Assembly (NCBI RefSeq): GCF_003319115.1
Contig: NZ_QOHF01000014.1
Span: 62,001-126,000 of the forward strand
From: Geodermatophilus sp. TF02-6
Lineage (GTDB): Bacteria; Actinomycetota; Actinomycetes; Mycobacteriales; Geodermatophilaceae
Direction of reading: 5' to 3'
Length of the DNA: 64,000 nucleotides
A model generated the notes under the pieces. The model made no database searches. It was not told where the DNA came from and saw nothing but the letters and a program-made list of their open reading frames with translations. The translations under genes were made by a program, and so were the position numbers. Below, piece after piece: positions 26,144 through 48,057 of the stretch. The first letter of the stretch is position 1. Each line of letters opens with the position of its first letter.

Positions 26144-26596
26144 TCACGGCCGTCTCTGGCTCCCGGTCGGCGGCGCCAGCGGTCCGCCCGGGCGGAAGAC
26201 CACCAGCCGCAGCACCACGAAGTTGACCGCCGTCCCGACGCCCTGGGAGACGACCCACGCCGCCGTCGTCGTCCACGGCGTGCGCGGCAGCAGCGCCAGG
26301 GCCGCGGCGTTCACCCCGAGGACGACGACGAACGTGGTGCCGTAGAGCAGGACGAAGGCGGCGGCCCGCCGCGGGCTGCCCTCCACGCCGAAGGACCACC
26401 GCCGGTTGAGCACGTACGCCACGGTGGTCCCGCACACGAAGCTCACCGCACGGGCCAGGTAGGTCGGCAGGCCGGCGTGCAGGCCCAGCAGGTAGACGGA
26501 CAGGTCGACCACGGCGCCGAGGAGGCCGACGGCGACGAAGCGCACCAACTGGCCCAGCAGCCCCCCGCGGCCGGGCCGCTCCGGGACACCCACCAC
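26144..26596 (-). CDS. GtrA-family membrane protein (second of three)
   Basis: A 150-residue four-helix protein with FVAVGLLGAVVDLSVYLLG, VAYVLNRRWSFG and a last helix ending VVLRLVVFRPG, all GtrA-family features. GTG start 26596, 6 bases after the DUF1028 stop, with a second GTG at 26593. It lies next to aftA, so it might flip a lipid-linked sugar used by wall glycosyltransferases. That role is inference. Confidence 0.88.
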   Translation of the reverse strand: MVGVPERPGRGGLLGQLVRFVAVGLLGAVVDLSVYLLGLHAGLPTYLARAVSFVCGTTVAYVLNRRWSFGVEGSPRRAAAFVLLYGTTFVVVLGVNAAALALLPRTPWTTTAAWVVSQGVGTAVNFVVLRLVVFRPGGPLAPPTGSQRRP

Positions 26597-28952: not shown

Positions 28953-29756
28953 TCAGGCGGGGCGGCCCAGCTCGCGGATGCCCTCGATCGTCCGGCCGAG
29001 CGTAGCGGTGACCCGCTCGTCCGCCGCGCGCCGAGGCAGCCGTGCGGGGTCGGGGGAGCGGACCAGCACGATCGACGCGCCGGCCGCCAGCGGTGCCAGC
29101 AGCCAGGCGACGGGGCCGGCCTCCGCGGCGGTGCGTTCGTCGACCAGCACCCGGTCGCCGGCGGCCACGCCGAGCCGGCCGGCCAGCTCCCGGGCGGTGT
29201 CGACCAGGCCGCCGAGGGTCAGCTCCAGCCCGCCGAGGCGCAGGCCGGGGGCGGCCGGGTCCGGCGGCTGCCAGGGGACGAAGACGTCGCCGTGCGCCCG
29301 CACCTCGACCGCGAAGTCGCGCGCCGGGCCGGCGTACCCGGTCATCCCCGTCCCCAGCGGGTGCAGGGAGAGGCCGAGCAGCTCGGGCAGGTCCTGCTCC
29401 TCCAGGGGCGCCAACCGGTCCTGCGCGGCCAGGACGACGTCGGCACCGGCCAGCCGCCCGTCGTCCTCGGCGGCGGTGTCGAGCACGGTGGCGCCGCAGC
29501 TCCACACCGCGAGCAGCACCGCCGCGGTCTGCCAGTGCACCGGCAGCGCGACCGCGACGGTGCTGCCGGCGGTGACGTCGAACTCGTCCTGCAGCAGGTT
29601 GGCCGTCTTCGCCACCCAGTTGGCGAGGGTGGTCGCCGACAGCTCCACGCGCTCGCCGCTCGCGTCGTCGTACTGGGTCAGCAGCGGTGCGGCGGGGGTG
29701 CGGCGCAGTGCCGCGTCGAGCAGCGCAGCGGGGTCGGTGGGACGGGTGTGGGCCAC
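28953..29756 (-). CDS. AMP-binding-like protein, TIGR03089 type
   Basis: A 267-residue protein resembling the N-terminal part of acyl-CoA synthetases (ALPVHWQTAAVLLAVWSCGA, LGGLVDTARELAGRLGV) but with no AMP-binding P-loop or C-terminal lid. This fits the TIGR03089 group of actinobacteria, of unknown role. GTG 29756 was chosen because the family starts near there. In mycobacteria a relative is found near LCP and rmlD genes. Confidence 0.75.
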   Translation of the reverse strand: MAHTRPTDPAALLDAALRRTPAAPLLTQYDDASGERVELSATTLANWVAKTANLLQDEFDVTAGSTVAVALPVHWQTAAVLLAVWSCGATVLDTAAEDDGRLAGADVVLAAQDRLAPLEEQDLPELLGLSLHPLGTGMTGYAGPARDFAVEVRAHGDVFVPWQPPDPAAPGLRLGGLELTLGGLVDTARELAGRLGVAAGDRVLVDERTAAEAGPVAWLLAPLAAGASIVLVRSPDPARLPRRAADERVTATLGRTIEGIRELGRPA

Positions 29757-29813
29757 GGGGACAGGGTGACACCGGACGCCGACCGGTTCGGCCCTCGGCC
29801 CGGACGGCGCGGA

Positions 29814-29819
29814 TAGAGT
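29814..29819 (+). promoter_or_regulatory. -10 box of the 29.8-37.1 kb operon
   Basis: TAGAGT is 8 bases upstream of a GTG (29828) that opens a 33-codon leader reading frame. It is the only clear promoter-like element before the six-gene operon. Confidence 0.45.
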
Positions 29820-29827
29820 CGCCCTCC

Positions 29828-29929
29828 GTGCGCTCACGACCATCCACCGTGTCGACGCGCCGAGAGGTGCGGTCGGTGCCGCGGCCCAGCCCGCCGGGCG
29901 CGATGAACGGGGAGGCCGAGAACGCATGA
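29828..29929 (+). CDS. Possible 33-residue leader peptide
   Basis: A short frame starting at GTG 29828, 8 bases after a TAGAGT box, ending in a TGA that overlaps the ATG of the membrane protein (ATGA, 29926-29929). It is rich in Arg, Ser, Pro and Val and has no known domain. It could couple translation of the operon or simply be chance; if the mRNA is leaderless, ribosomes would enter here. An ATG within it (29902) is a second possible entry. Confidence 0.3.
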   Translation: MRSRPSTVSTRREVRSVPRPSPPGAMNGEAENA

Positions 29930-32304
29930 CGACGGACACGGGCTCCCGCGCCGCCGTCCTCGAGCGCCCCCTGCCGCCGGTGCGGGACCGCAGCGCGGGC
30001 CCGCCGCTGCGCCGCTGGGCCCTGCTCGCCCGTACCGGGGTGCCGGCGCTGGTGGCCTACCTCCTCGTCCAGGGTCTGCAGCTGCTGCTCGTCCGCCGCT
30101 GGGCGCCGCGGTTCTTCTGGTTCGACGACTCGCAGGCCCAGTTCGGTCCCATGGCCTGGTGGCTCGGGCAGCACCTCGAGCGCGGCCGCCCGCCGCTCAT
30201 GGACCCCGACCTGGGCATGGGCGGCAACGTCGTGGCCGACATGCAGTACGGCGTGCTGGACCCGCTGCACTGGGCCGTCCACGCAGCCGTCGCGAGCTCC
30301 GACGACCTCCTCGCCGTCTCGTGGGCCTACGGCGCGACGACGATCCTGCTGCTCGGCGCCGGGTCGCTGACCGTGCTGCTGCAGTACCGCGTGCGGCCCG
30401 CGCTCGCCGTGGCCGCTGCCGTCGGGATCGGCTCCAGCGGCTTCCTCGTCTGGTACGGCAGCTCCTGGTGGCCGCTGCTGTGGGCCACCGCCAGCCTGCC
30501 GTGGCTCTGGGCCGGGCTGCGCAGCCGGTCGGCGGTCGGCGTCCTCGTCACCGGGCTGGCCAGCTGGGCGCTGATGACCTCGGGCAACCCCTACGCCTTC
30601 CCGTTCGCCGGGCTGCTGGTCGTCGGACAGCTGGTCGAGTACCGCGCCGAGCACGGCTCGTGGGCCGCGGCGCTGTCCGCCCCCCGAGCCCTCTCCCGGG
30701 CCGCGGCCTGCGTCGGTGCCCTGGTCGTGGCGCTGCCGACCTTCCTCTCCACGCTGCAGCTGTCGGAGGTCATGGGCCGCCAGCAGCCCGACCCGCTGGT
30801 CGGCAACACCGGGTTCGGGGTGCCCAACCTCGCCGACGTGCTCCTCGGCGGCACCACGCTGCTGGGCCAGACCAACGCCTGGACCGGGTCCGTCGGGCTG
30901 GTCCCGGCCACGGCCACCGCGCTCGTCGCGGTGCCCGCCGCCGCCCTCGTCGACTGGCGCACCGCGTGGCGCCGGTCCGGCGTCCCGACGGCCGGGCTGG
31001 TGTGGCTCGCCGCGGTGGTGGCCACCCAGCTGCCCACCACGGTCGCGGTCTTCCGCTATCCGCTGCGCTACCTCGTCTACGTCGAGGTCTTCCTGCCGCT
31101 GCTGGTGTTCGTCGCGCTCGCCGCCGCGCCACGGGTGAGCCGCCGTCGGGTCGCGCTCGCGGCCGGACTGGCCCTCGCCCAGGCCGCGCTCGCGCTGTCC
31201 CGGGCTCCGGTGCTGGTCAAGTGGCACCTGCTGGGGCTGGCCGTCGCCCTGGTGGCGCTGACCGCCCTCGTCGTCCTGCTGCGCGCCCGGCCCACCGGGG
31301 AGCAGCGGGACGACGCGCCCGACCGGCGCGGGCTGCCCGGCCACCGGAGCACTCCTCGGCCGCTGCCCGCCCTCGCCGGCGTGGTCCTCGTCCTCGCGGT
31401 CGCCTCCGGCTTCCCGATCGGTGAGCAGATGATGGTCGCCGTCCAGGAGCGGGCCGACGCCATCGCCGGCACCCCGGACAGCCACGGCGCGCCGCTGCGC
31501 GCTCTCGACCCGGGCCGCGACGTCGGTACCACCGTGGCCCAGTACCGTGCGCACTCGGTCGCCCCCGACGAGCAGCTCACCGTCGTCACCTGGGGCTTCG
31601 ACCCCGACCGCGGCTGGGACGACGGCGTGGTCAACGGCAGCGGGAACGTGCTCGCCGGCCTGGAGCCGGGGTTCGCCTCACTGGCCGTGTGGCAGGCCGC
31701 CCTCAACGGGCACTGGTGCCGCACGGTCTGGGGCGCCACCTGCTCGCCGCCGGAGGCGCTGCTCGCCGAGGCCGGGGACACCGGGCTGCCCTGGCTGGAC
31801 CTCATGTCCTCCGACACGGTGCTGCTGTCCACCGGCGCCCCCGAGGCGGTCCGGGCCCACTTCGACCAGACCTGGCGGCAGGTCGCGGCCAACGACACCT
31901 GGCTGCGCTACCAGCGGGCCGACGGCCTGCCGGGCCGGGTCACCGGCGTCGCGGGCGACGTGGTCGTCTCCGAGGAGGGCTGGCGCTCGGGGCCGGCGCG
32001 GGCCGGGGAGCCGATGGACAGCTACCTCGTCTCCACCGGTGCCCGGGGTGGCAGGCTGGCCACCCGCATCCCCTACTACCCGGGGATGAGCGCCACCCTC
32101 GACGGGCGGCCGCTGCCGGTGACCCCGGTGGACGGGGCGGCGCTCGCCGTCGAGCTGCCCCCGGACGTCGACGCCGGCCGGCTGGAGCTGTCCTACGCGC
32201 CGGCCGGGGCGGGGGCGGTCGTCCCCGCGGCGGTCGCCGGGGCGGCGCTCATCGTCCTCGCCGCGCTGGCCGACGCGGCCCTCCGTCGGCGGGCGGGCCG
32301 GTGA
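29926..32304 (+). CDS. YfhO-like multi-pass membrane protein (GT-C type)
   Basis: A 792-residue protein with about 12 membrane helices. After the first helix comes FFWFDDSQAQFGPMAWWLG, then LGMGGNVVADMQYGVLDPLHW, as in the periplasmic loop of YfhO. The C-terminal extracellular part ends with IPYYPGMSATLDGRPLP and an immunoglobulin-like strand pattern typical of YfhO. In Firmicutes YfhO moves sugars from a lipid carrier to wall polymers. Here it heads an operon that also holds a GtrA protein and a DPM-like transferase, the other two parts of such systems. Confidence 0.7.
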   Translation: MTTDTGSRAAVLERPLPPVRDRSAGPPLRRWALLARTGVPALVAYLLVQGLQLLLVRRWAPRFFWFDDSQAQFGPMAWWLGQHLERGRPPLMDPDLGMGGNVVADMQYGVLDPLHWAVHAAVASSDDLLAVSWAYGATTILLLGAGSLTVLLQYRVRPALAVAAAVGIGSSGFLVWYGSSWWPLLWATASLPWLWAGLRSRSAVGVLVTGLASWALMTSGNPYAFPFAGLLVVGQLVEYRAEHGSWAAALSAPRALSRAAACVGALVVALPTFLSTLQLSEVMGRQQPDPLVGNTGFGVPNLADVLLGGTTLLGQTNAWTGSVGLVPATATALVAVPAAALVDWRTAWRRSGVPTAGLVWLAAVVATQLPTTVAVFRYPLRYLVYVEVFLPLLVFVALAAAPRVSRRRVALAAGLALAQAALALSRAPVLVKWHLLGLAVALVALTALVVLLRARPTGEQRDDAPDRRGLPGHRSTPRPLPALAGVVLVLAVASGFPIGEQMMVAVQERADAIAGTPDSHGAPLRALDPGRDVGTTVAQYRAHSVAPDEQLTVVTWGFDPDRGWDDGVVNGSGNVLAGLEPGFASLAVWQAALNGHWCRTVWGATCSPPEALLAEAGDTGLPWLDLMSSDTVLLSTGAPEAVRAHFDQTWRQVAANDTWLRYQRADGLPGRVTGVAGDVVVSEEGWRSGPARAGEPMDSYLVSTGARGGRLATRIPYYPGMSATLDGRPLPVTPVDGAALAVELPPDVDAGRLELSYAPAGAGAVVPAAVAGAALIVLAALADAALRRRAGR

Positions 32305-32735
32305 GCGGCCGCTGGCGAGCGCTCGTGCACCAGGCGACCCGCTTCCTGCTGGGTTCCTGCCTGGGGCTGGCCGTCGACCTCGGCGTCTTCGCGCTCGGCG
32401 TGCGGCTGGGCGCGTCGCCGGGCGCGGCCAACGTGCTGAGCGCGGCCTGCGCGGTCGTGGTGGTGTACCTGTTCGTCACCCGGTACGCGTTCGCCGCAGA
32501 GCGCTCGCGGACGTCGTTCCTGCTCTTCGTCGCCTGGTACGTCGTCTCCATCGTGGTCTTCTCGGTGCTCATCGAGGTCCTGCACGACCGGACCGGGTGG
32601 GCGCCGCTGGTCTGCAAGTCGCTGTCGCTGCCTCCGTCGTTCGCGGCCAACTTCCTGGCCAGCAAGCTCCTGTTCCGCCGACGGCCGGCCGCGGCCGCAG
32701 CGCCGCGGCCCGTGCGCGACCCGGCGGGAGCCTGA
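32301..32735 (+). CDS. GtrA-family membrane protein (third of three)
   Basis: A 144-residue protein, GTG 32301 overlapping the stop of the YfhO-like gene. FLLGSCLGLAVDLGVFALG and VVVYLFVTRYAFA match the family, with four helices. Likely flips the polyprenyl-phosphate sugar made by the glycosyltransferase at 35576 to the outer face. Confidence 0.87.
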   Translation: MSGRWRALVHQATRFLLGSCLGLAVDLGVFALGVRLGASPGAANVLSAACAVVVVYLFVTRYAFAAERSRTSFLLFVAWYVVSIVVFSVLIEVLHDRTGWAPLVCKSLSLPPSFAANFLASKLLFRRRPAAAAAPRPVRDPAGA

Positions 32736-32793
32736 CGTGGGACGCAGCGCCGGACGTCACCGGGTGACCGAGGTAGTGGGGGAGCAGTTCGAC

Positions 32794-33366
32794 ATGGCAC
32801 GACCGGACGGGTCGCTGCGGGCCCTCCTCTTCGACCTCGACGGCACGCTCGTCGACACCCGGGAGGCCAACTACCTGGCCTACCGCGACGCCTTCGCCCA
32901 GTCGGGCCACGAACTCACCCCCGAGCGGTTCGCGACCACCTGGGGGCGGGACTCGCGGGACTTCATCCCCGACCTGCTGCCCGGCATCGACCCTCTCGGG
33001 GTCGACACGATCCGCGCGGCGAAGAGCCGCCTGTACGCCGACCAGCTGCACCGCACGACGGCCAACGCGGCGCTCGTCGCCTTCCTGCGGCTGGTCGCGC
33101 CCACCCACCGCACGGCGCTGGTGAGCACCGCCAAGTCCGGCAACGGCCGGCAGATCCTCGACGCCCACGGCCTGACCCCGCTGTTCGACGTCGTCGTGTG
33201 GGGGGACGACGTGACGCGCAGCAAGCCGGACCCGGAGGGCTACCTGCGGGCGCTGCACCTGCTGGGCGTCGACGCCGCGGCCGGCCTGGCGTTCGAGGAC
33301 TCCGAGACGGGGCGGCTGGCGGCTCTCGCCGCCGGGCTCACGGTCCTCGAGGTGCCGCACCTCTGA
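32794..33366 (+). CDS. HAD-family hydrolase
   Basis: A 190-residue HAD phosphatase: LLFDLDGTLVDT holds the nucleophile Asp, STAK is motif II, SKPDPEGY has the motif III Lys, and FEDSETG is motif IV. ATG 32794 is preferred since GGGGGAG precedes it by 9 bases; GTG 32737 and 32764 would add a non-conserved N-terminus. Its stop shares a base with the next ATG. In context it may dephosphorylate a sugar phosphate or similar intermediate. Confidence 0.87.
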   Translation: MARPDGSLRALLFDLDGTLVDTREANYLAYRDAFAQSGHELTPERFATTWGRDSRDFIPDLLPGIDPLGVDTIRAAKSRLYADQLHRTTANAALVAFLRLVAPTHRTALVSTAKSGNGRQILDAHGLTPLFDVVVWGDDVTRSKPDPEGYLRALHLLGVDAAAGLAFEDSETGRLAALAAGLTVLEVPHL

Positions 33367-35579
33367 TGCCCTCGCTCCGGTACTCGCGCGGTCGTCTCGT
33401 GCTGATCGTCGCCGCGCTGCTCTCGCTGGCCGGCTTCGCCGTCCTCACCCGGCCGTCGCTGACCGAGCTGTGGTCCCGGCTCTCCTCGGGCCTGGACGGC
33501 GGCGACTGGGCGGCGGTCGGCGCCGCCTCGCTCGTGCAGCTCGGCGGCCACGTGCTGCGCGCCGCGCGGACCAAGGTCCCCGTCGACAACGTGCGCCGGG
33601 GCAGCCTCGCCGGCCAGTTCCGCCACCTGTCCATCGGCTACCTGTTCAGCCTGGTGTGGCCGCTGCGGATCGGCGAGGTCGTGCGGTCCTACCTGGTGGC
33701 CAAGACGCTGCGGATCAGCTTCCTCTACACCCTGCTCGCGGTGGTGCTCGAACGGCTCATCGACGTCGTCCTGGTGTCGGTGGCCTTCCTCGTCTTCATC
33801 GCGGTCGTCGACGGGCCGGTGGGCGGCATCGTGCCCGCCGCGGCCGTCGTCGCACTGGGGGTCTCGGTCCTGCTCATCGCCGCGTTCGCCGCCTTCGTGC
33901 GGGAGAACCCGGTCCTCATGCAGCTGGCCTGGCGGGCCACCGCCTGGCTGAACACCGACCTGGAGAACCGCGCCCGGTTCAAGCTGTGGTCGGTGATCTT
34001 CGGCTTCCAGCGCTTCTTCCGGCAGCGCCGGCAGCTGGTCCGCTACGGGGGGCTGGCCCTGGCCTCCTGGGGCTGCTACGTCACGGCGGCGGCACTGACG
34101 GTCGCCACCGTCTTCCCGGTGCTCGCCGCCCGCGAGGCGTTCGTCGCCACGGCCGCCCCCGCCGGCGTGGTGAGCCCCAGCCTGGGCAACGGTGCCCCGG
34201 GCGCCTACGTGGACGGCATCCGGGCCTTCATCGAGGGCAGCACCACCCTGGGCGGGCCGACGGTGGTCCTGTTCGCGGCCGCCACGTGGGCGGTGGTCAA
34301 CGTCCCGGTGCTGCTGGTCGCCGTCGTGGCGCTGTTCGTCAACTGGGCGCGGCAGACCAGCGACCCGCTGGCCGGCGCGCAGCTGAGCCCGGCCGACCGC
34401 TACGTCAACAAGCTGGGCCGCGACCAGGACATCTCCGGGTCGATGACCCACTTCCTGGACGCCTACTTCCAGCGCCAGCACCTGTCCCAGGTGATGCACC
34501 GCCTGGAGGTCGAGGGCAACGTCAGCCTGGTCCGCTTCTTCAAGGGCGGGTCCAACGCGGTGACGCTGCTGGCGACCAACGGCTCCGGTGAGCTGTTCGT
34601 CAAGAAGATGGTGCCGCTGGAGTACGCGCACCGGCTGAAGAACCAGCACGACTGGCTGGCCGGGCGCGCCGACCACTGCCAGCTGGTCACCGTCCTGCGC
34701 GAGCAGCGCGCCGAGGACCACTACGCGATCGACCTCGAGTACCGGCCCAGCAGCGTGCCGCTGTTCGAGTACGTGCACGAGAGCCCCCTCGCCGAGGGCG
34801 CGGCGAAGCTCGCCGAGGTCTGGGACTACATGTACGAGCGGGTGTACGACGTCGGCCCGCTCGAGGCGCACCCCGACCTGCGCGACGACTACGTGACCGA
34901 ACGCTTCGTGCTGCGCGTGCGGGCCGCGGCCGAGTCGCACCCGGCCCTCGCCGAGGCGCTCAAGGCCGAGCGGATCGTGGTCAACGGCCGGGAGCTGGAC
35001 AACTTCGACCGCGTCCTGCGCAGGATCCAGGCCACCGAGGAGGCGTGGGAGGACCTCGCCACCTTCCGGGCGTCGGCGCACATCCACGGCGACCTGACCG
35101 TGGACAACATCCTGGTCGACCTGCCCTCGCGTGACGTGCTGGTCATCGACCCGTCGGACGACAACCAGGTGCGCGGGCCGGTCATCGACTTCGCCCGGCA
35201 CATGCAGTCGCTCGCGTACGGCTACGAGTTCCTCAACGAGGACGAGGACCCCGTCGTCCTCGGAGCGCAGGACGGCGTCCCGGAGATCGCCTACCGCGAC
35301 GCCCGCTCCGCGCGGTACGCCGAGCTGGCCGAGTTCGTGACCACCCAGGTCATGCCGCGCCACCTGTCCTCGGCCGAGCAGCGCTCGGTGCTCTTCCACG
35401 TCGGCCTCTTCTACGGCCGCATGCTGACCCACCGGGTCGCCATCAACCCCGGCACGGTGCTCAAGTACTACGGCGTCTGCATCCAGGCGCTCAACCGCTT
35501 CCTCGAGCAGTACGACCTGTCCGTGGAGGCCCAGGACGACGTCTTCGGCACCGAGCCGAGGGAGGAGCTCGCCCGGTGA
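33366..35579 (+). CDS. Flippase-like membrane domain fused to an APH-type kinase
   Basis: A 737-residue fusion. Residues 1-330 carry about eight helices of the LPG_synthase_TM/UPF0104 type (GQFRHLSIGYLFSLVWPLRI is the family core). Residues 345-737 form a phosphotransferase of the aminoglycoside kinase fold: Lys413-414 (FVKK) on the ATP strand, HGDLTVDN (His574, Asp576, Asn581) as catalytic loop, and DPSDDN (Asp595) with IDFARH (Asp608) as metal site. All key kinase residues are present, so it should be active. It may phosphorylate a small molecule at the membrane and link this to transport. ATG 33366 overlaps the HAD stop; GTG of the next gene overlaps its end. Confidence 0.8.
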   Translation: MPSLRYSRGRLVLIVAALLSLAGFAVLTRPSLTELWSRLSSGLDGGDWAAVGAASLVQLGGHVLRAARTKVPVDNVRRGSLAGQFRHLSIGYLFSLVWPLRIGEVVRSYLVAKTLRISFLYTLLAVVLERLIDVVLVSVAFLVFIAVVDGPVGGIVPAAAVVALGVSVLLIAAFAAFVRENPVLMQLAWRATAWLNTDLENRARFKLWSVIFGFQRFFRQRRQLVRYGGLALASWGCYVTAAALTVATVFPVLAAREAFVATAAPAGVVSPSLGNGAPGAYVDGIRAFIEGSTTLGGPTVVLFAAATWAVVNVPVLLVAVVALFVNWARQTSDPLAGAQLSPADRYVNKLGRDQDISGSMTHFLDAYFQRQHLSQVMHRLEVEGNVSLVRFFKGGSNAVTLLATNGSGELFVKKMVPLEYAHRLKNQHDWLAGRADHCQLVTVLREQRAEDHYAIDLEYRPSSVPLFEYVHESPLAEGAAKLAEVWDYMYERVYDVGPLEAHPDLRDDYVTERFVLRVRAAAESHPALAEALKAERIVVNGRELDNFDRVLRRIQATEEAWEDLATFRASAHIHGDLTVDNILVDLPSRDVLVIDPSDDNQVRGPVIDFARHMQSLAYGYEFLNEDEDPVVLGAQDGVPEIAYRDARSARYAELAEFVTTQVMPRHLSSAEQRSVLFHVGLFYGRMLTHRVAINPGTVLKYYGVCIQALNRFLEQYDLSVEAQDDVFGTEPREELAR

Positions 35580-36358
35580 ACCCGGTCGACACGAGTGTGG
35601 TCATCGCCATACCGGCCTACAACTGCGCGCCCCAGATCGGTCGGGTGCTCGACGAGGTCACCGACGAGGTGGCCGCGCGGGTCACCGAGATCTGGGTGAT
35701 CGACAACCGGAGCACCGACGACACCCTCGAGCGGGCGGTGGAGTACCGGCGCTCCGGACGGCTGCCCGGCCTGCGGGTCTTCTGCAACCGGCAGAACAAC
35801 AGCCTCGGCGGCACGCACAAGGTCGCCTTCGAGCACGCCCGCGCCGCGGGCCACACGCACGTGGTCGTCCTGCACGGCGACAACCAGGCCAGGAGCGACG
35901 AGGTCGGCCTGCTGCTCGACCACGCCGAGGCCCACCCCGCGACCCAGACCGTGCTGGGCTCCCGGTTCAGCCGCCGCTCGCGGCTGCACGGCTACGACGC
36001 CAAGCGCGTCTGGGGCAACCGGGTGCTGGGCGCCGTCTACAGCGCGGTGGCGCTGCGCCGGCTGGAGGACCTCGGCTCCGGCCTCAACCTCTTCGCGCTG
36101 CACGACCTGGATCCGGCGACCTACCTGCGCTTCGCCAACGGGCTGACGTTCAACTACGAGCTGATCCTCGACCTGGTCCGACGCGGGGTGCGTTTCGCCT
36201 TCGTGCCGATCACCTGGCGCGAGGAGGACCAGGTGTCGAACGCCCGGAACTGGAACGTCTTCCGGACGGCGCTGCGCAACCTCGCGCTGTGGCGCACCGG
36301 GCGACCCGGCCCGGGCGCCGACCCGGCCGCCGACTACGAGTGGGACGAAGTGCGGTGA
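35576..36358 (+). CDS. Family 2 glycosyltransferase (DPM synthase-like)
   Basis: A 260-residue soluble GT-A enzyme: VVIAIPAYNCAPQIGRVL, WVIDNRSTDDT, and HGDNQARSDE in the place of the metal-binding DxD. GSRFSRR, DLGSGLNLF and FNYELILDL resemble polyprenyl-phosphate mannose or glucose synthases. It lacks C-terminal membrane helices, unlike CsbB or GtrB. Predicted to load a sugar onto polyprenyl phosphate for the GtrA and YfhO-like proteins of the same operon. GTG 35576 and the stop both overlap neighbours. Confidence 0.87.
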   Translation: MNPVDTSVVIAIPAYNCAPQIGRVLDEVTDEVAARVTEIWVIDNRSTDDTLERAVEYRRSGRLPGLRVFCNRQNNSLGGTHKVAFEHARAAGHTHVVVLHGDNQARSDEVGLLLDHAEAHPATQTVLGSRFSRRSRLHGYDAKRVWGNRVLGAVYSAVALRRLEDLGSGLNLFALHDLDPATYLRFANGLTFNYELILDLVRRGVRFAFVPITWREEDQVSNARNWNVFRTALRNLALWRTGRPGPGADPAADYEWDEVR

Positions 36359-37098
36359 TGGCGACCCTGCAGGTGCTGATGCCCATGGGCGGTCTGGGGA
36401 CCCGCTTCCGCAGGGTCGGGATCACCACCCCCAAGCCGCTCATCGAGGTCGACGGCGCGCCGATGTTCCAGCGCGCGCTGCGCTCGTTCGACCCGTGGCC
36501 GGGGGAGAAGACGGTGACCGTCGTCGTCCGCGCGGACGACGACGCCGAGCACGGGCTGGCCCGGCAGGTCCTGGCCGCCGAGCCGACCGCCACCATCGTG
36601 CGGCTGGACCACGACACGCGTGGGGCGGTGGAGACCTGCCTGGAGGCCCGGGACCGGCTCGACCCCGACCAGCCGCTGGTGGTCATGGACTGCGACATCG
36701 CCTTCGACAGCCCCGAGTACTTCCGGGTGCTGGCCACCGCAGTCGACCGCCGGGACGTCGACGGCCTGCTGCTGTCGTTCGCCTCCACCGAGCCGCGCTA
36801 CAGCTTCGCCGAGGTGGGCCCGGGCGGCCTGGTCGTCCGCACGGCGGAGAAGCAGGCCATCTCCTCCGACGCGCTCATGGGCGTGTACTCGTTCCCCCGG
36901 GCACGGGTGTTCCTCGAGGCCGCCGACCGCCTCATGGCCCGGCAGATCGACGCGGCCATGCCGGAGTACTACGTGTCGCTGGTCTTCAACGAGCTGATCG
37001 ACTCCGGCCGCCGGGTGGGCCTGGTCCGCGGCGACTTCTACTGCTTCGGGACGCCGGAGGAGCTCGCCGCCTACCGGGCGACCGGTCTGCCCGTCTGA
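36358..37098 (+). CDS. Sugar-phosphate nucleotidyltransferase-like protein
   Basis: A 246-residue NTP_transferase with the signature MPMGGLGTRFRRVGITTPKP (nucleotide loop and KP), the metal Asp in VMDCDIAFDS, and FCFGTPEELAAY-like C-terminal YCFGTPEEL. It is close to small cytidylyl- or uridylyltransferases of capsule clusters. It probably activates a phosphorylated compound made by the kinase domain of the upstream gene. ATG 36358 overlaps the stop of the glycosyltransferase. Confidence 0.85.
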   Translation: MATLQVLMPMGGLGTRFRRVGITTPKPLIEVDGAPMFQRALRSFDPWPGEKTVTVVVRADDDAEHGLARQVLAAEPTATIVRLDHDTRGAVETCLEARDRLDPDQPLVVMDCDIAFDSPEYFRVLATAVDRRDVDGLLLSFASTEPRYSFAEVGPGGLVVRTAEKQAISSDALMGVYSFPRARVFLEAADRLMARQIDAAMPEYYVSLVFNELIDSGRRVGLVRGDFYCFGTPEELAAYRATGLPV

Positions 37099-37109
37099 CG
37101 GTCAGCACG

Positions 37110-37149
37110 CGACAGCGCCCCCCGGCTCGCCAGGCAGGGGGCGCTGTCG
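37110..37149. terminator. Strong hairpin between convergent genes
   Basis: A 13-bp perfect stem: CGACAGCGCCCCC (37110-37122) pairs with 37137-37149, with a 14-base loop. It ends the plus-strand operon and, read the other way, the acyltransferase gene that stops at 37160. Confidence 0.8.
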
Positions 37150-37159
37150 TGCGGTCCGG

Positions 37160-39379
37160 CTACAGCCGGGCGGTGATGTGCCGGCCCAGCGTGCGGGAGA
37201 AGGTCGCGGTCAGGTGGCTGCCGTCGAAGTAGACGATCACCCCGCCGACCAGCTCGTGGCAGGTCTGCCCGTCGCAGAAGGCGTCGGTCAGGTCGAGCAC
37301 CGAGATGCGGTCGTCCCGCAGGGCGCTGGCGGCGTCGGCCAGCCGGTCGGGGGTCAGCCGCACGCCGCGGGGGCCGGCGCACGGGTCGTGCACCTCCCCG
37401 GCGCGGGCGATGCAGTCCGGTGCGCTGGACTCCAGGTTGACCAGCTCCGGGCCCAGGTGCACCCCGCCGGTCGTCGGGACGGCGCGCAGCACGGTCACCC
37501 GCTTGCCGGCGTCGGCGAGCCGCTGCAGCGGGGCCTGCACCAGCTCGGCGGGGAACTCGTCGTGCAGGACGCCGGCGTCGTCGGCATACTTGTAGACGTC
37601 GGACCGGTAACTGGTGAACACCCGGCTGATCGACCGGTCCCCGGCGATCTCGGCGAGAGCCTGCTGCCCCCACTGCGCGCAGGCCGGTCGCTCGTCGGCC
37701 GGCTGACCGGCGGCGGGCAGCATCGCGCTGCCCAGGCCGGGGCACCCGGCCTTCAGGTAGGTGACGACCGCCCAGTCGCGCTCGCGGGCGACCTCCTCCA
37801 TCGCCTCGTAGAGGCTGGCGGTGTGCGAGTCGCCCAGGAGGGCGACGGTCTCCACCGGGTCCTCGCTGCCGAACCGGCAGGTCACCACGTCGGTCTGGGC
37901 GAGCACCGACAGGCAGGACAGACCGCGGGACACGTCCGACTTGGCGAAGATGGGGTTGGCCGCGTCACCGGCGTACGCCCATGGGTCACCGCAGGCGTGG
38001 CCGGGCAGGGTGGCGCCGGTGCCGAAACAGGGGTCCCCGCCCGCGGCGGCGGCCGCGGCGGCCTCCCGGGCCCGGTCCACCTGCTCCTCGACGTAGAACC
38101 AGCCCCCGGCGACGCAGCCGACGACCAGGGCCGTGGCGACGGCGGTGGCGAGCAACGTGCTGCCGCTCCCGCGCCGGGCCAGCGGGGTGCCGGTCCGGAC
38201 CGGGTCCTCCACCCAGACCTTGGTGGCCCACGCGGCGGCCACGGTGGCTCCCAGGATGCCGACCTTCGACGTCGTCCCGAGCTCGTGGCCGAGCGCGAAC
38301 GGCAGGACGACGACGAGCGGCCAGTGCCACAGGTAGGCGGAGTAGGAGACCTCGCCGAGGAAGCGGACCGGGCCGAAGTCGGCGACCGCCGTCGGGCTCC
38401 AGTCGGAGCGCGGCGCGCCCGCCCAGATGACCGCGACCGTGCCCAGCACGGGCAGCAGCGCCGCCGTGCCGGGGAACGGCGTGGCGCCGGTGAAGGTGGA
38501 CGCCGCGTACCCGACGGCGCCGAACCCGGCCCAGGAGACCAGCGACCGCAGCCGCTCGGCACCGGCCGGCGGGGTGGCCGCCCACAGCGCGAGCAGGCCG
38601 CCGAGGCCGAACTCCCAGGCGCGGGCCGGGGTGGTGAAGTAGGCGTCGGGCGGGCTGACCGCCGTGGTGTGCAGCGACCAGGCGAACGACCCGACGGTGA
38701 GGACGCCGAACAGCGCGCCGACCACCGTGCGCCGGCGGGTCCCGGCCCGGACGGCGACCCAGGCGGCCAGCACCACCAGCAGCGGCCAGGCCAGGTAGAA
38801 CTGCTCTTCGGTCGACAGCGACCAGTAGTGCTGCGCCGGGGAGGCGGCGTTGGTGTGCGCCAGGTAGTCGACGGCGTCGCCGGCGAGCAGCCAGTTCTCC
38901 GCGTACAGCGCCGAGGCGCCGATCTCGCGCAGCCAGCCCTGCCAGTAGGTCTGCGGCACCCAGACGACGGTGGCGGCGGCGCTGACAAGGAGCACGAGCA
39001 GGGAGGCGGGCAGCAGGCGGCGGGCGCGGCGGGCCCAGAACCGCGCAAGACGGATGCGACCGGTGCGCTCGACCTCGCGGAGCAGGTGGCCGGTGATCAG
39101 GAAGCCGGAGACGACGAAGAAGACGTCGACGCCCACGTAGCCGCCGGGCAGGCGGAGCGGGACGACGTGGTAGAGGACGACGAGGGAGACCGCAAGCGCG
39201 CGCAGCGCCTGGATCTCCACCCGGACGCCGGAGTCGCGGCGGGCGGGTGGTGGGGTCCTCGCCGAGGGACGGGAGAGGGGCGAGGAGCGCAGCAGCGCCA
39301 TCTGTTCGGTGCGGTCGGGCAGCGCCGGGCGCGGGACGACCGCCGTCGTCCGTTCCAGCGTGCTCCGCTGTCCCGCCAT
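37160..39379 (-). CDS. OafA/OatA-type acyltransferase with SGNH domain
   Basis: A 739-residue protein. The first half is an acyltransferase-3 domain with ten helices (EIQALRALAVSLVVLYHV, GGYVGVDVFFVVSGFLITG, WSLSTEEQFYLAWPL). The C-terminal extracellular SGNH domain has the Ser block LLGDSHTASLYEAM and the Asp-His block DGSHLTATFS. Such enzymes O-acetylate wall glycans or exported sugars. ATG 39379 is chosen (GGGGAGAAG upstream) over a start at 39424. Divergent from the lipoprotein gene at 39589; the 209-base gap has a relatively AT-rich stretch near 39510-39570 that probably holds both promoters. Confidence 0.88.
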   Translation of the reverse strand: MAGQRSTLERTTAVVPRPALPDRTEQMALLRSSPLSRPSARTPPPARRDSGVRVEIQALRALAVSLVVLYHVVPLRLPGGYVGVDVFFVVSGFLITGHLLREVERTGRIRLARFWARRARRLLPASLLVLLVSAAATVVWVPQTYWQGWLREIGASALYAENWLLAGDAVDYLAHTNAASPAQHYWSLSTEEQFYLAWPLLVVLAAWVAVRAGTRRRTVVGALFGVLTVGSFAWSLHTTAVSPPDAYFTTPARAWEFGLGGLLALWAATPPAGAERLRSLVSWAGFGAVGYAASTFTGATPFPGTAALLPVLGTVAVIWAGAPRSDWSPTAVADFGPVRFLGEVSYSAYLWHWPLVVVLPFALGHELGTTSKVGILGATVAAAWATKVWVEDPVRTGTPLARRGSGSTLLATAVATALVVGCVAGGWFYVEEQVDRAREAAAAAAAGGDPCFGTGATLPGHACGDPWAYAGDAANPIFAKSDVSRGLSCLSVLAQTDVVTCRFGSEDPVETVALLGDSHTASLYEAMEEVARERDWAVVTYLKAGCPGLGSAMLPAAGQPADERPACAQWGQQALAEIAGDRSISRVFTSYRSDVYKYADDAGVLHDEFPAELVQAPLQRLADAGKRVTVLRAVPTTGGVHLGPELVNLESSAPDCIARAGEVHDPCAGPRGVRLTPDRLADAASALRDDRISVLDLTDAFCDGQTCHELVGGVIVYFDGSHLTATFSRTLGRHITARL

Positions 39380-40291: not shown

Positions 40292-40819
40292 ATGGGAGCG
40301 AGGGCATCGGGACTGGGTCGCGCGGAGGCGACGGTGCTGGGGGTGACCCGGCGCGCGCTGGGCGGGACGCCGGCGGTGCCGTGCGCCCGGGTGCTCTCGC
40401 TGTTCGGCGAGCACGCCGCCGGGTGGCTGCTGCTCGGCGCGGGGGGCTGGCTGGTCGGGCGGCGCCGCCGGGAGTGGGCGACCGCGGCGGCGGGCGTCCT
40501 GCTCGCCCACGGCAGCGCCGTGGGGGTCAAGCGGGTGGTGCGCCGCGTGCGCCCGGTGCTCGACGCCGTCCCGGCGCTGGTCGCCACGCCGAGCCGGCTG
40601 TCGTTCCCCAGCGCGCACGCCGCGTCCACCGCGGCCGCGGCCTACGGGTACGGTCCGCTCCTCGGCCGGCGGCTCCTGACGACGGCGCTCGGCGCGATGG
40701 CCGTGTCGCGCGTGCTGCTGGGTGTGCACTGGCCGACCGACGTGCTGGCCGGCGCGCTGCTGGGCCGCGGGGTGGCCGCCGGCGTCCGCTGGACCGCGGC
40801 CCGGAGGGACGCACGATGA
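40292..40819 (+). CDS. PAP2-family phosphatase of the DPA pathway
   Basis: A 175-residue membrane phosphatase with the three acid-phosphatase motifs: KRVVRRVRP, PSAH, and SRVLLGVHWPTD. In M. tuberculosis the neighbour of ubiA (Rv3807c) is such a protein and is proposed to remove the 5-phosphate from decaprenyl-phosphoryl-5-phosphoribose. A TAGGCT box lies 8 bases before the ATG, so the four-gene unit PAP2-ubiA-dprE1-dprE2 likely starts here. Confidence 0.88.
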   Translation: MGARASGLGRAEATVLGVTRRALGGTPAVPCARVLSLFGEHAAGWLLLGAGGWLVGRRRREWATAAAGVLLAHGSAVGVKRVVRRVRPVLDAVPALVATPSRLSFPSAHAASTAAAAYGYGPLLGRRLLTTALGAMAVSRVLLGVHWPTDVLAGALLGRGVAAGVRWTAARRDAR

Positions 40820-41802
40820 CGACCTCGCACACCTCTCCGCTGCACGGGGACCCGGAGCACGAGGCCCGGCCCGTGGCGGCGGCGCCGCCGGTCGACACCG
40901 GCGTGGCGCTGCGCCCGACCGGGTTCCGCGGGTCCCTCCCCTGGGGGCTGGTCCGCGCCGTGCGCCCCCGGCAGTGGGTGAAGAACGTGCTGGTGCTGGC
41001 CGCGCCGCTGGCGGCCGGGCGGATCTTCGATCCCGACGTCCTGCGCGCCACGCTCGTGGCCCTGGTCCTGTTCTGCCTGGTCTCGGGCGGCATCTACCTC
41101 GTCAACGACGTCATCGACGCCGAGGAGGACCGGCGCCACCCCCGCAAGCGCTTCCGGCCGATCGCGGCCGGCATCGTCCCCCGGTCGCTGGCCCTGGCCC
41201 TGGCCGCGGTGCTGTTCGCAGGCGCGGTGACCACCGCGGCCCTGCTCACCCGCCCCGAGCTGGCCTGGGTGCTGGGGGTCTACGTCGTGCTGCAGCTGTC
41301 CTACTGCCTGTGGCTCAAGCAGCAGCCTGTCATCGACCTGGCGATCGTGGCCTCGGGCTTCCTGCTGCGCACCGTCGCCGGCGGCGTGGCCGCCGGCATC
41401 GCCATCTCGCAGTGGTTCCTGCTGGTCGCCGCGTTCGGGTCGCTGTTCATGGTGGCCGGCAAGCGCTACTCCGAACTGGTGGTGATCGGCGACGCGGCGG
41501 CCACCCGCAAGACGCTGCGCGAGTACTCGGCCAGCTACCTGCGCTTCGTGTGGAGCATGTCGGCCGGCGTGACGGTCACCGTCTACAGCCTGTGGGCCTT
41601 CGAGATGGGGGAGTCCCGGGACGGCGTCCCCTGGTCGACGATCTCCATCGCCCCGTTCGTGCTCGGTCTGCTGCGCCATGCGGTGGACCTCGACCGCGGC
41701 GCCGCCGGTGCGCCCGAGGAGGTCGTCCTGAAGGACAAGGTGCTGCTCACGTTCGGCTGCCTGTGGCTGCTGACCATGGGGCTGGGGGTCTTCCTTGGCT
41801 GA
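40816..41802 (+). CDS. ubiA: Decaprenyl-phosphate phosphoribosyltransferase (UbiA family)
   Basis: A 328-residue membrane prenyltransferase with about nine helices. NDVIDAEEDRRHPRKRFRPI is the first Asp-rich motif (NDxxDxxxD) of the UbiA fold; VKNVLVLAAPL and YCLWLKQQPVIDL fit the Rv3806c type, which couples PRPP with decaprenyl phosphate, the first step of arabinose donor synthesis. ATG 40816 overlaps the PAP2 stop (ATGA). Confidence 0.93.
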   Translation: MTTSHTSPLHGDPEHEARPVAAAPPVDTGVALRPTGFRGSLPWGLVRAVRPRQWVKNVLVLAAPLAAGRIFDPDVLRATLVALVLFCLVSGGIYLVNDVIDAEEDRRHPRKRFRPIAAGIVPRSLALALAAVLFAGAVTTAALLTRPELAWVLGVYVVLQLSYCLWLKQQPVIDLAIVASGFLLRTVAGGVAAGIAISQWFLLVAAFGSLFMVAGKRYSELVVIGDAAATRKTLREYSASYLRFVWSMSAGVTVTVYSLWAFEMGESRDGVPWSTISIAPFVLGLLRHAVDLDRGAAGAPEEVVLKDKVLLTFGCLWLLTMGLGVFLG

Positions 41803-43159
41803 CGTGCTGTCCGGACGGCGGGAGTGGCTGACCGGCTGGGGCCGCACAGCGCCGACGCCGGCGACCGTGACGACGGTCGGCTCGGTCGAGGACGTCTGTG
41901 CGGTGCTGCGCTCGGGCGCCCCGCGCGGCGTGCTGGCCCGGGGCCTGGCCCGCAGCTACGGCGACGCGGCCCAGAACGCCGGTGGCGCGGTCCTCGACAC
42001 GACCGCGCTGGACCGCGTCCTCGACGTCGACCTGGCCACCGGGAGCGTCGAGGTGGAGGCCGGCGTCTCGCTGGACCGGCTGATGACCCTGTTCGTCCCG
42101 CTCGGCCTGTTCGTCCCGGTGACCGCCGGCACCCGGTACGTCACCGTCGGCGGGGCGATCGCGGCCGACATCCACGGCAAGAACCACCACCAGGCGGGCA
42201 GCTTCTCCCGGCACGTGCAGTGGCTGGACCTGCTCACCGCGGACGGCCAGGTGCGCCGGATCGGCCCCGACCGGGACCCCGAGCTGTTCTGGGCCACCGC
42301 CGGCGGCATGGGCCTGACCGGGGTGGTCCTGCGCGCCCGGGTGCAGATGAAGCCGATCGAGACCTCGCGGTTGCTGGTCGACACCGACCGGACCCCGGAC
42401 CTCGACGCGCTCATGGACCTGTTGACCACCACCGACCACCTCTACGACTACTCGGTGGCCTGGATCGACTGCGTCGCCCGCGGCGCGCGCATGGGCCGTT
42501 CCGTGCTGACCCGCGGCCGGTTCGCCCGCCGCGACGAGCTGCCCGCCGAGCACCGCGACGATCCCCTGCGCTACTCGGGGTCGGTGCGGCTGTCGGCGCC
42601 CGACGTCTTCCCGCCCAAGCTGCTCAACCTGGCGACGGTCGCGGCGTTCAACGAGCTCTGGTACCGCAAGGCGCCCAAGCGCAAGCGCGGCCAGGTGCAG
42701 TCGATCCCGACGTTCTTCCACCCGCTGGACGGCGTGGGCGGGTGGAACCACGTCTACGGCCCGCGCGGCTTCGTCCAGTACCAGTTCGTCGTCCCCTTCG
42801 GGCAGGAGGACGCCATGCGGACGGCGATGCAGCGGATCAGCTCCTCGGGGACGGCGTCCTTCCTCGCGGTCCTCAAGCGCTTCGGCGACGGCGACCCCGG
42901 TCTGCTGTCGTTCCCGCAGCCGGGGTGGACGCTGGCCCTGGACATCCCCGTGGTCGAGGGTCTGGCCGGCCTGCTCGACGAGCTCGACGAGCTGGTCGTC
43001 GCGGCCGGCGGGCGGATCTACCTGGCCAAGGACTCCCGTGTCCGACCGGACCTGTTCGAGCGGATGTACCCGCAGCTGGACCGGTTCCGCGCGGTGCGGG
43101 CGCGCATCGACCCCGACGGGGTCTTCACCTCCGACCTCGCGAGGAGGCTCTCCCTGTGA
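41795..43159 (+). CDS. dprE1: Decaprenylphospho-beta-D-ribofuranose 2-oxidase
   Basis: A 454-residue FAD-linked oxidase that, with DprE2, epimerises decaprenyl-phosphoryl-ribose to the arabinose donor. Family marks: RGLARSYGDAAQNAGG, ADIHGKNHHQAGSF (His127, the flavin-contacting His), and AKDSRVRPDLFERMYP. At the benzothiazinone-reactive Cys position (Cys387 in M. tuberculosis, in PGWNVCVDFP) this protein has PGWTLALDIP, so Ala381. Start taken as TTG 41795, overlapping the ubiA end, with GGGGG 6 bases ahead; GTG 41804 is an alternative. Confidence 0.94.
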   Translation: MADVLSGRREWLTGWGRTAPTPATVTTVGSVEDVCAVLRSGAPRGVLARGLARSYGDAAQNAGGAVLDTTALDRVLDVDLATGSVEVEAGVSLDRLMTLFVPLGLFVPVTAGTRYVTVGGAIAADIHGKNHHQAGSFSRHVQWLDLLTADGQVRRIGPDRDPELFWATAGGMGLTGVVLRARVQMKPIETSRLLVDTDRTPDLDALMDLLTTTDHLYDYSVAWIDCVARGARMGRSVLTRGRFARRDELPAEHRDDPLRYSGSVRLSAPDVFPPKLLNLATVAAFNELWYRKAPKRKRGQVQSIPTFFHPLDGVGGWNHVYGPRGFVQYQFVVPFGQEDAMRTAMQRISSSGTASFLAVLKRFGDGDPGLLSFPQPGWTLALDIPVVEGLAGLLDELDELVVAAGGRIYLAKDSRVRPDLFERMYPQLDRFRAVRARIDPDGVFTSDLARRLSL

Positions 43160-44060: not shown

Positions 44061-45641
44061 TCAGTTGATGCAGGTGGTGTCGGCGGCGGTGCGGGCGTCC
44101 TCGCCCTCCGCCGGTGCCGACGACGCCGCCGCCGGAGCCGGGGGGGTGACGGCCTGGCCGACGCCGTTGAAGTCCGACCCCAGCACCAGCTGCACGGTGC
44201 CCGACGTCGCGTCGTCGCTGGCCTCGACGACCGCGCCGGGGACGGCGGCGGCGAGCGTGGCGGCCAGGGCCTCGTCGCCGGCGGCGTGCCGGACGACGGT
44301 CTGCCCGTAGTCGGAGGAGTCGGCGTTGCCGGTGTCGCCGACGGCGAAGCCGGCCGTCTCCAGGGCGTCGGCGGCCTCGGCGGCCAGTCCGGGCTGCCCG
44401 GAACCGTTGTAGACGTCCACCGTGACCGCCGGCGGGTCGACCGTCGCGGGGGCCTCGGAGGTCGCGGGGGTCGCCTCCCCGGCCGGGGCCTCGGGCTCGG
44501 CGGAGAGCTGGGCGAAGAACTCGTGCAGGGTGTCCTCGTCCTGCAGCCGGAGGATGTAGCGCCCCTGGTCGTCCTGGTCGTCGCCGAGGTAGGGGATGGT
44601 CTGGAAGTCGATGCTGCCGGCGGTCACCGACTGCATCTGCTCGGCCAGCGAGAACAGGTCCAGGCTCTGGTCGACGGTGAGCGCGGAGGACGCCGCCTGC
44701 ACCAGCTCGCGCTGCTTGCCCAGGTCGAGCAGGACGTCCTCGGAGAGCATCTTGCGCAGCACCCCGGCGATGAACACCTGCTGGCGGACGATCCGGTCGA
44801 AGTCGCCGCGCGGCAGCCCGTGGCGCTGGCGGACGAACTTCAGCGCGTCCGCGCCGCTGACCGTCTGCACCCCGGCCGGGAAGACCGCCCCGGACCAGCG
44901 CGAGTCGTCCACGGCCTGGCACAGGTTGACCTCGACGCCGCCGACGACGGAGCTGAGCTCGAAGAAGCCGAGCAGGTCGACCTCGGCGTAGTGGTCGATC
45001 TGCAGGCCGGTGAGCCGGCTGATGGTCTGCACGAGCAGCTGCGCGCCCGCCGCCTGCCGCTGCTGGCCGGAGGCGTTCTCGGGGGCGTCGGCGTACCCGT
45101 AGGCGTAGGCGGCGTTGAGCTTGTCCCAGCCGTGGCCGGGGATCTGCACGTAGGAGTCGCGCGGGAAGGAGACGAACGAGGCGCGCGCACCGTCGGCCGG
45201 GACGTGGGCCAGGATCATCGTGTCGGTGTTGATCCCGGAGTCCTCGCCGGCGTTGAGCTCGGCGAGCTGCTCCTCGGTCAGGTCGGCGCGGCTGTCGTTG
45301 CCGACCAGCAGCAGGTTCATCGCGTCGCCGCCGCCCTCGTTGCCTGAGTCCGGGATGGCGTCGGTGCGGTTGACCGTGGCCTCGGCGACCTGACCGAGGT
45401 ACCAGCCCCACCCGGCCCCGGCGAGCAGCAGGGTCGCCAGCACGCCGGCCACCGCCCGCGCCACGACGGCTCTGCGACCGGTCCGCCGCCCGGGCTGCTC
45501 GGCCCCGCGGGCGCCGTCCTCGGCGCGCTCACCGACCCGATCCGCGGTCGGGCGGGCACGGGTGGGACGCCCGGCCCGCGGATCGAGCCGCGCGGGCAGC
45601 GAGCGACCGGTCGGGCCCGGCTCGGAGCGGTCTCGGCTCAC
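44061..45641 (-). CDS. lcp1: LytR-CpsA-Psr ligase with LytR_C domain
   Basis: A 526-residue protein: cytosolic basic N-terminus (about 75 residues), one membrane helix (VVARAVAGVLATLLLAGAGW), the LCP domain (LLLVGNDSRADLT, GINTDTMILAHV, SFPRDSYVQIPG, KLNAAYAYG), and a C-terminal LytR_C domain (VTVDVYNGSGQPGLAAEAAD). LCP enzymes attach wall polymers to peptidoglycan; Lcp1 of M. tuberculosis (Rv3267), next to rmlD and wbbL1, ligates arabinogalactan. The context here is the same. GTG 45641 is preferred (GAGGA just upstream), with GTG 45653 as alternative. Confidence 0.9.
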   Translation of the reverse strand: MSRDRSEPGPTGRSLPARLDPRAGRPTRARPTADRVGERAEDGARGAEQPGRRTGRRAVVARAVAGVLATLLLAGAGWGWYLGQVAEATVNRTDAIPDSGNEGGGDAMNLLLVGNDSRADLTEEQLAELNAGEDSGINTDTMILAHVPADGARASFVSFPRDSYVQIPGHGWDKLNAAYAYGYADAPENASGQQRQAAGAQLLVQTISRLTGLQIDHYAEVDLLGFFELSSVVGGVEVNLCQAVDDSRWSGAVFPAGVQTVSGADALKFVRQRHGLPRGDFDRIVRQQVFIAGVLRKMLSEDVLLDLGKQRELVQAASSALTVDQSLDLFSLAEQMQSVTAGSIDFQTIPYLGDDQDDQGRYILRLQDEDTLHEFFAQLSAEPEAPAGEATPATSEAPATVDPPAVTVDVYNGSGQPGLAAEAADALETAGFAVGDTGNADSSDYGQTVVRHAAGDEALAATLAAAVPGAVVEASDDATSGTVQLVLGSDFNGVGQAVTPPAPAAASSAPAEGEDARTAADTTCIN

Positions 45642-45898
45642 GGGTGTCCTCACTGCGGGATGCGGTCCGCCGGACCGGGTCGGCCGGTGGGTCGGCCGGA
45701 GCGGCCGGACGGCGCCGACGCGAGAGGGGCCGGCGCCCGCCAGGGTAGCCACGCGCGGCCAGCACGGGAGGCGTCCGACACGGGAGGGGCCGCCCCACCG
45801 GGAACCGCCGTCCCCCCGTCGTCCACGCTCCTCACCGGCCGCAGACGTCACACCGCGGGAGGATGCCCGGGACCCACCGTGACGGGATGATCCGGGTC
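45642..45898. promoter_or_regulatory. Divergent lcp / rmlB intergenic region
   Basis: A 257-base gap between two divergent wall genes must contain both promoters. I see no clear TANNNT box next to either start and no strong repeat. CGGGAGG at 45856-45862 directly abuts the ATG at 45863, too close for use with that codon. Confidence 0.35.
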
Positions 45899-47871: not shown

Positions 47872-48004
47872 CCAGCGCCCTTCCCCGCAGGTGACCGGTG
47901 GGCCCCGAGGGCCACGGCACCGCGGACGGAGGGAATCCACCGCGGGACGGGCCGCTCGGCTCAAGACCGGCCTCCCCGGTGCCGATGTCCCCCGGTGGAC
48001 AGAC

Positions 48005-48026: not shown

Positions 48027-48057
48027 AGCAGCCACGGCCCCACCGGAGGACCACTTC

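Follow-up and report, generated by a model that had tools for sequence, protein, structure and literature searches.

We lean towards reading a six-gene operon of Geodermatophilus sp. TF02-6 as a multi-component system for extracytoplasmic glycosylation that supplies its own sugar donor. The operon lies on the plus strand (29926–37098) of a 64,000-nucleotide stretch of contig NZ_QOHF01000014.1 (positions 62,001 to 126,000; the whole stretch is hereafter the window), and on this reading it joins a known kind of extracytoplasmic glycosylation system to a new, self-contained activation module that includes a fusion of a flippase-like domain with a kinase. Sequence, gene context or predicted fold establish the protein families, the mostly intact active-site motifs, the glycosyltransferase (GT)-C and small-molecule-kinase folds, and the linkage of the genes. 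The conserved unit is a core of four genes—HAD phosphatase, fusion, family 2 glycosyltransferase (GT2) and nucleotidyltransferase—of which the six-gene set is the actinobacterial form, other membrane proteins taking their place beside the core in other phyla.

Operon layout and gene products

Each of the six genes overlaps or abuts the next, and a hairpin follows the last of them:

29926..32304, plus strand: YfhO-like GT-C glycosyltransferase, putative final transferase, 792 aa (PF09586 below cut-off, plus predicted fold)
32301..32735, plus strand: GtrA/DPMS transmembrane-family protein, putative lipid-sugar flippase or GT2 partner, 144 aa (PF04138, 47.3 bits; cut-off 26.1)
32737..33366, plus strand: HAD phosphatase of the beta-PGM/sugar-phosphatase branch, 209 aa (HAD_2, 88.6 bits)
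33366..35579, plus strand: fusion of an LPG_synthase_TM flippase-like domain (residues ~1–340) and an aminoglycoside phosphotransferase (APH)-fold kinase domain (~343–725) (PF03706, PF01636)
35576..36358, plus strand: GT2 glycosyltransferase, putative polyprenyl-phosphate sugar synthase, 260 aa, no predicted transmembrane helix (PF00535, 59.2 bits)
36358..37098, plus strand: MobA-like/sugar nucleotidyltransferase, 246 aa (PF12804, 45.3 bits; PF00483, 25.9 bits)
~37109..37150, plus strand: terminator-like hairpin lacking a T-run, between the convergent operon and acyltransferase genes (−42.5 kcal/mol for 37095–37165, z −3.35)

Coordinates and Pfam both agree with a preliminary description of this DNA, which had listed six adjoining plus-strand genes of these families; the Pfam matches concur with the label of each protein, that of YfhO lying below its cut-off. 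Overlaps of 4 bp (YfhO/GtrA), 1 bp (HAD/fusion), 4 bp (fusion/GT2) and 1 bp (GT2/nucleotidyltransferase), with a 1-bp gap at GtrA/HAD as the sole non-overlapping junction of the five, would fit a single, translationally coupled transcript. An alternative start of the HAD gene is the ATG at 32794. Upstream, the operon is bordered by a divergent gene and downstream, beyond the hairpin, by a convergent acyltransferase/SGNH gene (PF01757, PF19040). The same description had placed a promoter box in front of the operon, which did not hold up: a consensus scan of 29600–37400 returned no sigma-70 promoter, and position 29814, at which that description began, is a lone TAGAGT. Its strong terminator survives in part, as the hairpin is real but has no T-run and is absent from the output of the terminator scan.

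Against PF09586, the product of the first gene scored 26.0 bits (gathering cut-off 28.5), and its profile had no match by sequence to solved structures up to E 1; we therefore turned to the predicted fold, which settles this protein as a predicted GT-C transferase. A DD[SA] motif is present in 13/13 alignment rows, a DxD or modified DxD motif being a feature of polytopic GT-C transferases. The first two proteins can also form one chain, as in Naasia lichenicola (L021, 6581–9415), whose YfhO-like protein carries a C-terminal GtrA domain. Five Geodermatophilaceae loci (L005, L008, L009, L011, L012) have a second YfhO-like gene 3′ of the cassette, of which the window's genome has none at E up to 1e-5. 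Two more GtrA-family proteins are encoded on the minus strand of the window (26144–26596 and 16918–17406; 70.7 and 83.1 bits, cut-off 26.1), which means that the GtrA family is also represented outside the cassette.

The HAD protein falls short of the TIGR02009 model (99.4 bits, cut-off 153.35); the best solved match of its profile is TM_1254, a phosphatase of phosphorylated carbohydrates (132.1 bits), and the active-site motifs DxD, T, K and ED are retained. Both halves of the fusion pass their Pfam cut-offs (PF03706, 51.4 bits; PF01636, 24.3 bits), and the kinase motifs HGDLT[VI]DN and DP occur in 27/27 rows. By sequence, the best match of the kinase profile to a solved structure has an E-value of 0.038. 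Its AlphaFold2 model (mean predicted confidence, pLDDT, 85.3) is closest to glucosamine kinase, maltokinase, APH(2''), MTR kinase and NahK; the predicted fold of the fused kinase is that of small-molecule (sugar, aminoglycoside, choline) kinases. Among solved structures, the GT2 profile matches dolichyl-phosphate mannose synthase best (DPMS, 5mlz; 55.3 bits), followed by ArnC-type enzymes at 42 bits, tied with chondroitin synthase. The nucleotidyltransferase exceeds the cut-offs of both PF12804 and PF00483, retains the family signature and the first-metal DxD, and its profile matches 4evw best (131.7 bits), then GlmU and GMPP.

Plasmids of Azospirillum and Rhizobium provide a second setting for this nucleotidyltransferase family (L058, 4754–8469; L059, 4780–8487; L060, 4844–8421). 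The HAD phosphatase there is accompanied by a tandem double nucleotidyltransferase (with GT2 as its annotation), by a divergent third nucleotidyltransferase and by a protein that appears GDPD-like by eye and has no Pfam hit.

Recurrence across phyla and accessory status in the genus

At the protein level, 75 of the 8000 candidates scored matched the fusion with E no higher than 0.001, a count that covers the window's protein itself, and its nearest named relatives by identity come from Geodermatophilus, Blastococcus and Modestobacter. A contig scan that used only the fusion-family alignment (A1) confirmed 33 loci out of 94 pattern matches. When these loci were queried with single proteins, we found relatives of the HAD phosphatase in 31, of the nucleotidyltransferase in 30 and of the GT2 in 29, with all three present in 27. 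That 27 of 33 loci found by the fusion alone also hold the three other genes argues against chance. These full-core loci span Actinomycetota to Myxococcus, Patescibacteria and Methylobacterium, and while gene order varies among lineages, linkage stays. The preliminary arrangement thus extends beyond one strain; as a unit, what recurs is the four-gene core, and the full six-gene set is its actinobacterial form.

Six loci fall short of the full core. Three (L027, L030, L033) are cut by contig ends. Two (L031, which also stops at a contig end, and L035) show no HAD gene, and their nucleotidyltransferase has an extra C-terminal part that matches HAD families below cut-off. The last, from a metagenome-assembled genome (MAG) of a micrarchaeon (L036), holds a kinase relative of 393 aa, without a membrane part in the frame read, adjoined by a HAD gene and another nucleotidyltransferase; a GT2 was not found by these profiles, ~4 kb upstream being covered.

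The membrane components vary more. By single query, YfhO-like proteins were found in 16/33 loci and GtrA in 19/33; Pfam additionally detects GtrA in L024 and L027, as well as in the L021 chain described above. A Pseudochrobactrum plasmid carries GtrA, GT2, nucleotidyltransferase, fusion and HAD in a row, its kinase part being 25.3% identical. The Methylobacterium set includes a Methyltransf_23 gene (PF13489), and a membrane protein whose ALG3 match falls below cut-off is encoded there too. The methyltransferase-family protein (L037, 6241–7389) has a Cys-rich start and possibly modifies the sugar. For six neighbouring membrane proteins (L023, L025, L027, L028, L029, L047), Pfam gave no family with E of 1 or less, and for a seventh (L024) only chance-level matches; from their size and helices, our guess is that these seven proteins are GT-C transferases. 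In the kinase tree, the 21 Actinomycetota fall on one side of a branch (98/97), and several distant rows sit on long branches with unsure placement.

Within Geodermatophilus, the cassette is accessory and lies in a cell-wall gene neighbourhood. Counting the window's genome, 4/26 genomes of the genus have the fusion, as do 0/35 sampled relatives outside it, yet the contig scan did find it in other Geodermatophilaceae. Carriers of the cassette include Geodermatophilus nigrescens and Blastococcus saxobsidens. At class level, 5/296 genomes, again counting the window's own, matched the kinase with E no higher than 1e-10. Just one of the four others has a nucleotidyltransferase beside the kinase (G241, L043), with no HAD and, 8 kb off, a GT2 match of only 23 bits; the remaining loci (L044–L046) are weak relatives that have neither nucleotidyltransferase nor GT2; HAD is weakly matched in two.

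The gene upstream of the cassette (28959–29744) occurs in 26/26 genomes of the genus. We read stretches beside it in 10 of the 22 cassette-less genomes, seeking relatives of window genes exclusively: in seven, this neighbour directly adjoins a relative of the LytR-CpsA-Psr (LCP) gene (44064–45851), and in the remaining three, the two flanks are separated by a match to the UbiA region. The cassette therefore sits within an accessory stretch of ~29.8–44.0 kb, which also holds a UbiA/PAP2/FAD-oxidase set and is followed by LCP and LGFP-repeat genes. In that same stretch, the PAP2, UbiA (40903–41802) and FAD-binding/ALO oxidase genes stand in a row (40292–43156), a decaprenyl-phosphoribose/arabinose-like set. 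Two long proteins (47995–51051 and 51661–54354) have ten matched LGFP stretches each, one of them with an Amidase_2 domain; their matches in cassette-less genomes are ~41–57% identical, compared with 61–92% for most neighbours.

Proposed pathway and competing explanations

The families and predicted folds support the earlier suggestion that a GT2, GtrA and GT-C set is here accompanied by a kinase, a HAD phosphatase and a nucleotidyltransferase of its own. The idea in the same description that LGFP proteins or lipoproteins might be acceptors drew neither support nor contradiction from the analysis, and the group attached may or may not be unusual. In the pathway that we propose, the HAD enzyme would remove the phosphate from a sugar phosphate, and the kinase domain, at the cytoplasmic end of the flippase-domain protein, would phosphorylate the free sugar, probably at C1. 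The nucleotidyltransferase would then yield a nucleoside diphosphate (NDP)-sugar, from which the soluble GT2 could load the sugar onto polyprenyl phosphate. GtrA and/or the LPG_synthase_TM domain would move the polyprenyl-phosphate sugar to the outer face, where the YfhO-like GT-C enzyme may hand it to an envelope glycan or protein. We infer the order of the steps, the C1 position, the topology, the flipping protein and the acceptor. By analogy, the HAD–kinase–nucleotidyltransferase order would follow the logic of MupP-AmgK-MurU, and the last three steps would follow the multi-component transmembrane glycosylation systems (PMC8035078). Fusion of the kinase to a flippase-like domain may suggest channelling on the membrane side.

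Several observations weigh against this pathway. Little separates the scores of the kinase fold matches, and aminoglycoside or choline kinases are numerous among them, so they imply neither a sugar substrate nor the C1 position. The transmembrane count, by which the GT2 has no helix, comes from crude hydropathy on simple gene calls. In 14/16 rows, the nucleotidyltransferase has no counterpart of the second metal Asp of RmlA-type enzymes; the structure 4evw likewise has no Asp at that position. The MupP and MurU models score far under cut-off (29.8 of 359 and 17.5 of 250 bits), the operon offers two flippase candidates (GtrA and the LPG_synthase_TM domain), and proteins of such kinds are common in envelope loci. 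Moreover, 15 of the 33 loci come from related Geodermatophilaceae and the counts are not independent. Between the four core proteins, pairwise distances are correlated with r 0.85–0.94 (12 non-redundant of 29 sets; none of 2000 permutations as high), which could also stem from shared organism phylogeny.

The same three activation enzymes would be required by a bisphosphate route as in NDP-heptose synthesis, in which the kinase acts on a sugar phosphate, possibly of heptose, the HAD enzyme removes the distal phosphate of the resulting bisphosphate and the nucleotidyltransferase activates the 1-phosphate. The nucleotidyltransferase profile also matches 6-deoxy-heptose pathway enzymes (35.9 bits), and GmhA-like genes, all below model cut-off, occur in 26/26 genomes of the genus. 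Their presence, however, does not track that of the cassette (26/26 versus 4/26), and the GmhA-like gene of the window's genome adjoins its own HldE-like kinase/adenylyltransferase and heptosyltransferase-like genes, so the heptose route seems to have its own enzymes; we regard this alternative as unlikely. A kinase domain that acts on the carrier lipid or a lipid-linked sugar, or that regulates the flippase domain, with no activation of a soluble sugar, would suit the membrane domain to which it is joined in most of the relatives listed, and no sugar-kinase family model recognizes it. We consider this less likely still, given that the nearest folds are mainly soluble small-molecule kinases and that the micrarchaeal relative, without a membrane part in the frame read, keeps HAD and nucleotidyltransferase genes alongside.

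Non-sugar activation in the manner of LicA/LicC, where kinase and nucleotidyltransferase make a CDP-alcohol and the GT2 uses a housekeeping NDP-sugar, draws on LicA (15.0) and choline kinase (14.8) lying ~2 Z units under the best kinase match, and on the MobA-like character of the nucleotidyltransferase. It leaves the HAD step unexplained, though, and a GT2 accompanies kinase and nucleotidyltransferase in distant lineages, a linkage not needed if the GT2 donor came from elsewhere; a weaker point is that no structure named LicC figures among the 44 solved matches of the nucleotidyltransferase at E up to 0.001. Taken together, this is improbable. Ordinary GDP-mannose and dolichyl-phosphate-mannose supply, a possibility that the preliminary description had itself raised, is very improbable: DPMS is the best solved match of the GT2 profile, but the gene set is accessory (4/26 genomes), the nucleotidyltransferase scores 16.6 bits against the mannose-1-phosphate guanylyltransferase equivalog model (cut-off 440), and two further GT2 relatives, 26% and 24% identical and of untyped function, are encoded elsewhere in the genome.

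The heptose-like genes of the window's genome (contig 3; L063, 7322–10804) stand in a row—GmhA-like, HldE-like and heptosyltransferase-like—in a Gram-positive actinobacterium, the GmhA and heptosyltransferase matches being below cut-off. We found no link between a heptose pathway and the cassette, the GmhA-like gene being genus-wide with the HldE-like gene beside it in this genome.

Relation to known systems

The self-sufficient glycosylation system that we favour resembles multi-component transmembrane glycosylation systems such as CsbB-GtcA-YfhO and GtlA-GtcA-GtlB (PMC8035078). Both comprise a GT-A-type enzyme resembling polyprenyl-phosphate glycosyltransferases, a GtrA protein and a YfhO-like GT-C transferase. 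A flippase gene of GtrA or Wzx type is represented by the PF04138 match past its cut-off (flipping being predicted), and a GT-C-fold polytopic transferase with a DxD-type motif by the YfhO-like protein (predicted fold, DD[SA]). Unlike the first-described forms, the cassette GT2 has no membrane anchor, but in such systems the GT-A may be cytoplasmic and the membrane protein separate (PMC8035078). Whereas the examples described there start from a ready-made NDP-sugar, for instance UDP-galactose (PMC8035078), the cassette adds HAD, kinase and nucleotidyltransferase, its kinase being fused to a second flippase-like domain.

MupP-AmgK-MurU is an anabolic MurNAc recycling pathway that feeds peptidoglycan precursors (PMC5371407). 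Common to both are a HAD_2 phosphatase, a kinase and a GlmU-like nucleotidyltransferase, which in the cassette form a proposed series. AmgK has an APH-type fold, and that pathway is not known to include a GT2, a GT-C or a flippase fusion. UbiA-type pentofuranose three-component systems (GT136) form the donor with a polyprenyl phosphoribose synthase and use a MATE flippase (PMC11127046). A lipid-linked donor, a flippase and a GT-C would be shared, and their ORF15 includes a phosphatase domain; the cassette, in contrast, uses a GT2 and an NDP-sugar set. None of its six proteins is a UbiA-like polyprenyl phosphoribose synthase by Pfam, the UbiA gene lying outside the cassette in the same island. 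Mycobacterial arabinan galactosaminylation (PpgS/Rv3631, Rv3632, Rv3779) combines a GT2, a GtrA-like protein and a GT-C in an actinobacterium; we know of no dedicated kinase, HAD or nucleotidyltransferase there, and the cassette GT2 scores 30.4 bits against the PpgS model (cut-off 370). Among the papers listed by searches of the open-licence literature for this gene set or its parts, mostly judged by title and opening of the abstract, we recognized no description of a kinase–flippase fusion with HAD, nucleotidyltransferase and GT2.

As to the sugar itself, galactose, glucose and ribose are listed for G. poikilotrophi (PMC4119925), and PMC9686282 offers nothing decisive as a chemotaxonomic hint. 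A broader reading, which we put forward tentatively, would see a mobile, orthogonal sugar-loading module distributed over the bacteria, of which at least one archaeal MAG keeps a remnant of the core: a salvage-type HAD/1-kinase/nucleotidyltransferase set, its kinase welded to a flippase-like domain, might channel one dedicated sugar from the phosphosugar pool onto polyprenyl phosphate, and lineages might plug in unrelated GT-C transferases for their own surface polymers.

The donor appears to be made inside the operon, by way of a kinase joined in one protein to a flippase-like membrane domain. If true, soil actinobacteria, myxobacteria and Saccharibacteria could be searched for a surface sugar with the cassette as gene signature. 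The cassette would also lend itself to a clean test of the role of LPG_synthase_TM domains, as its kinase would point to the lipid-linked sugar to look for.
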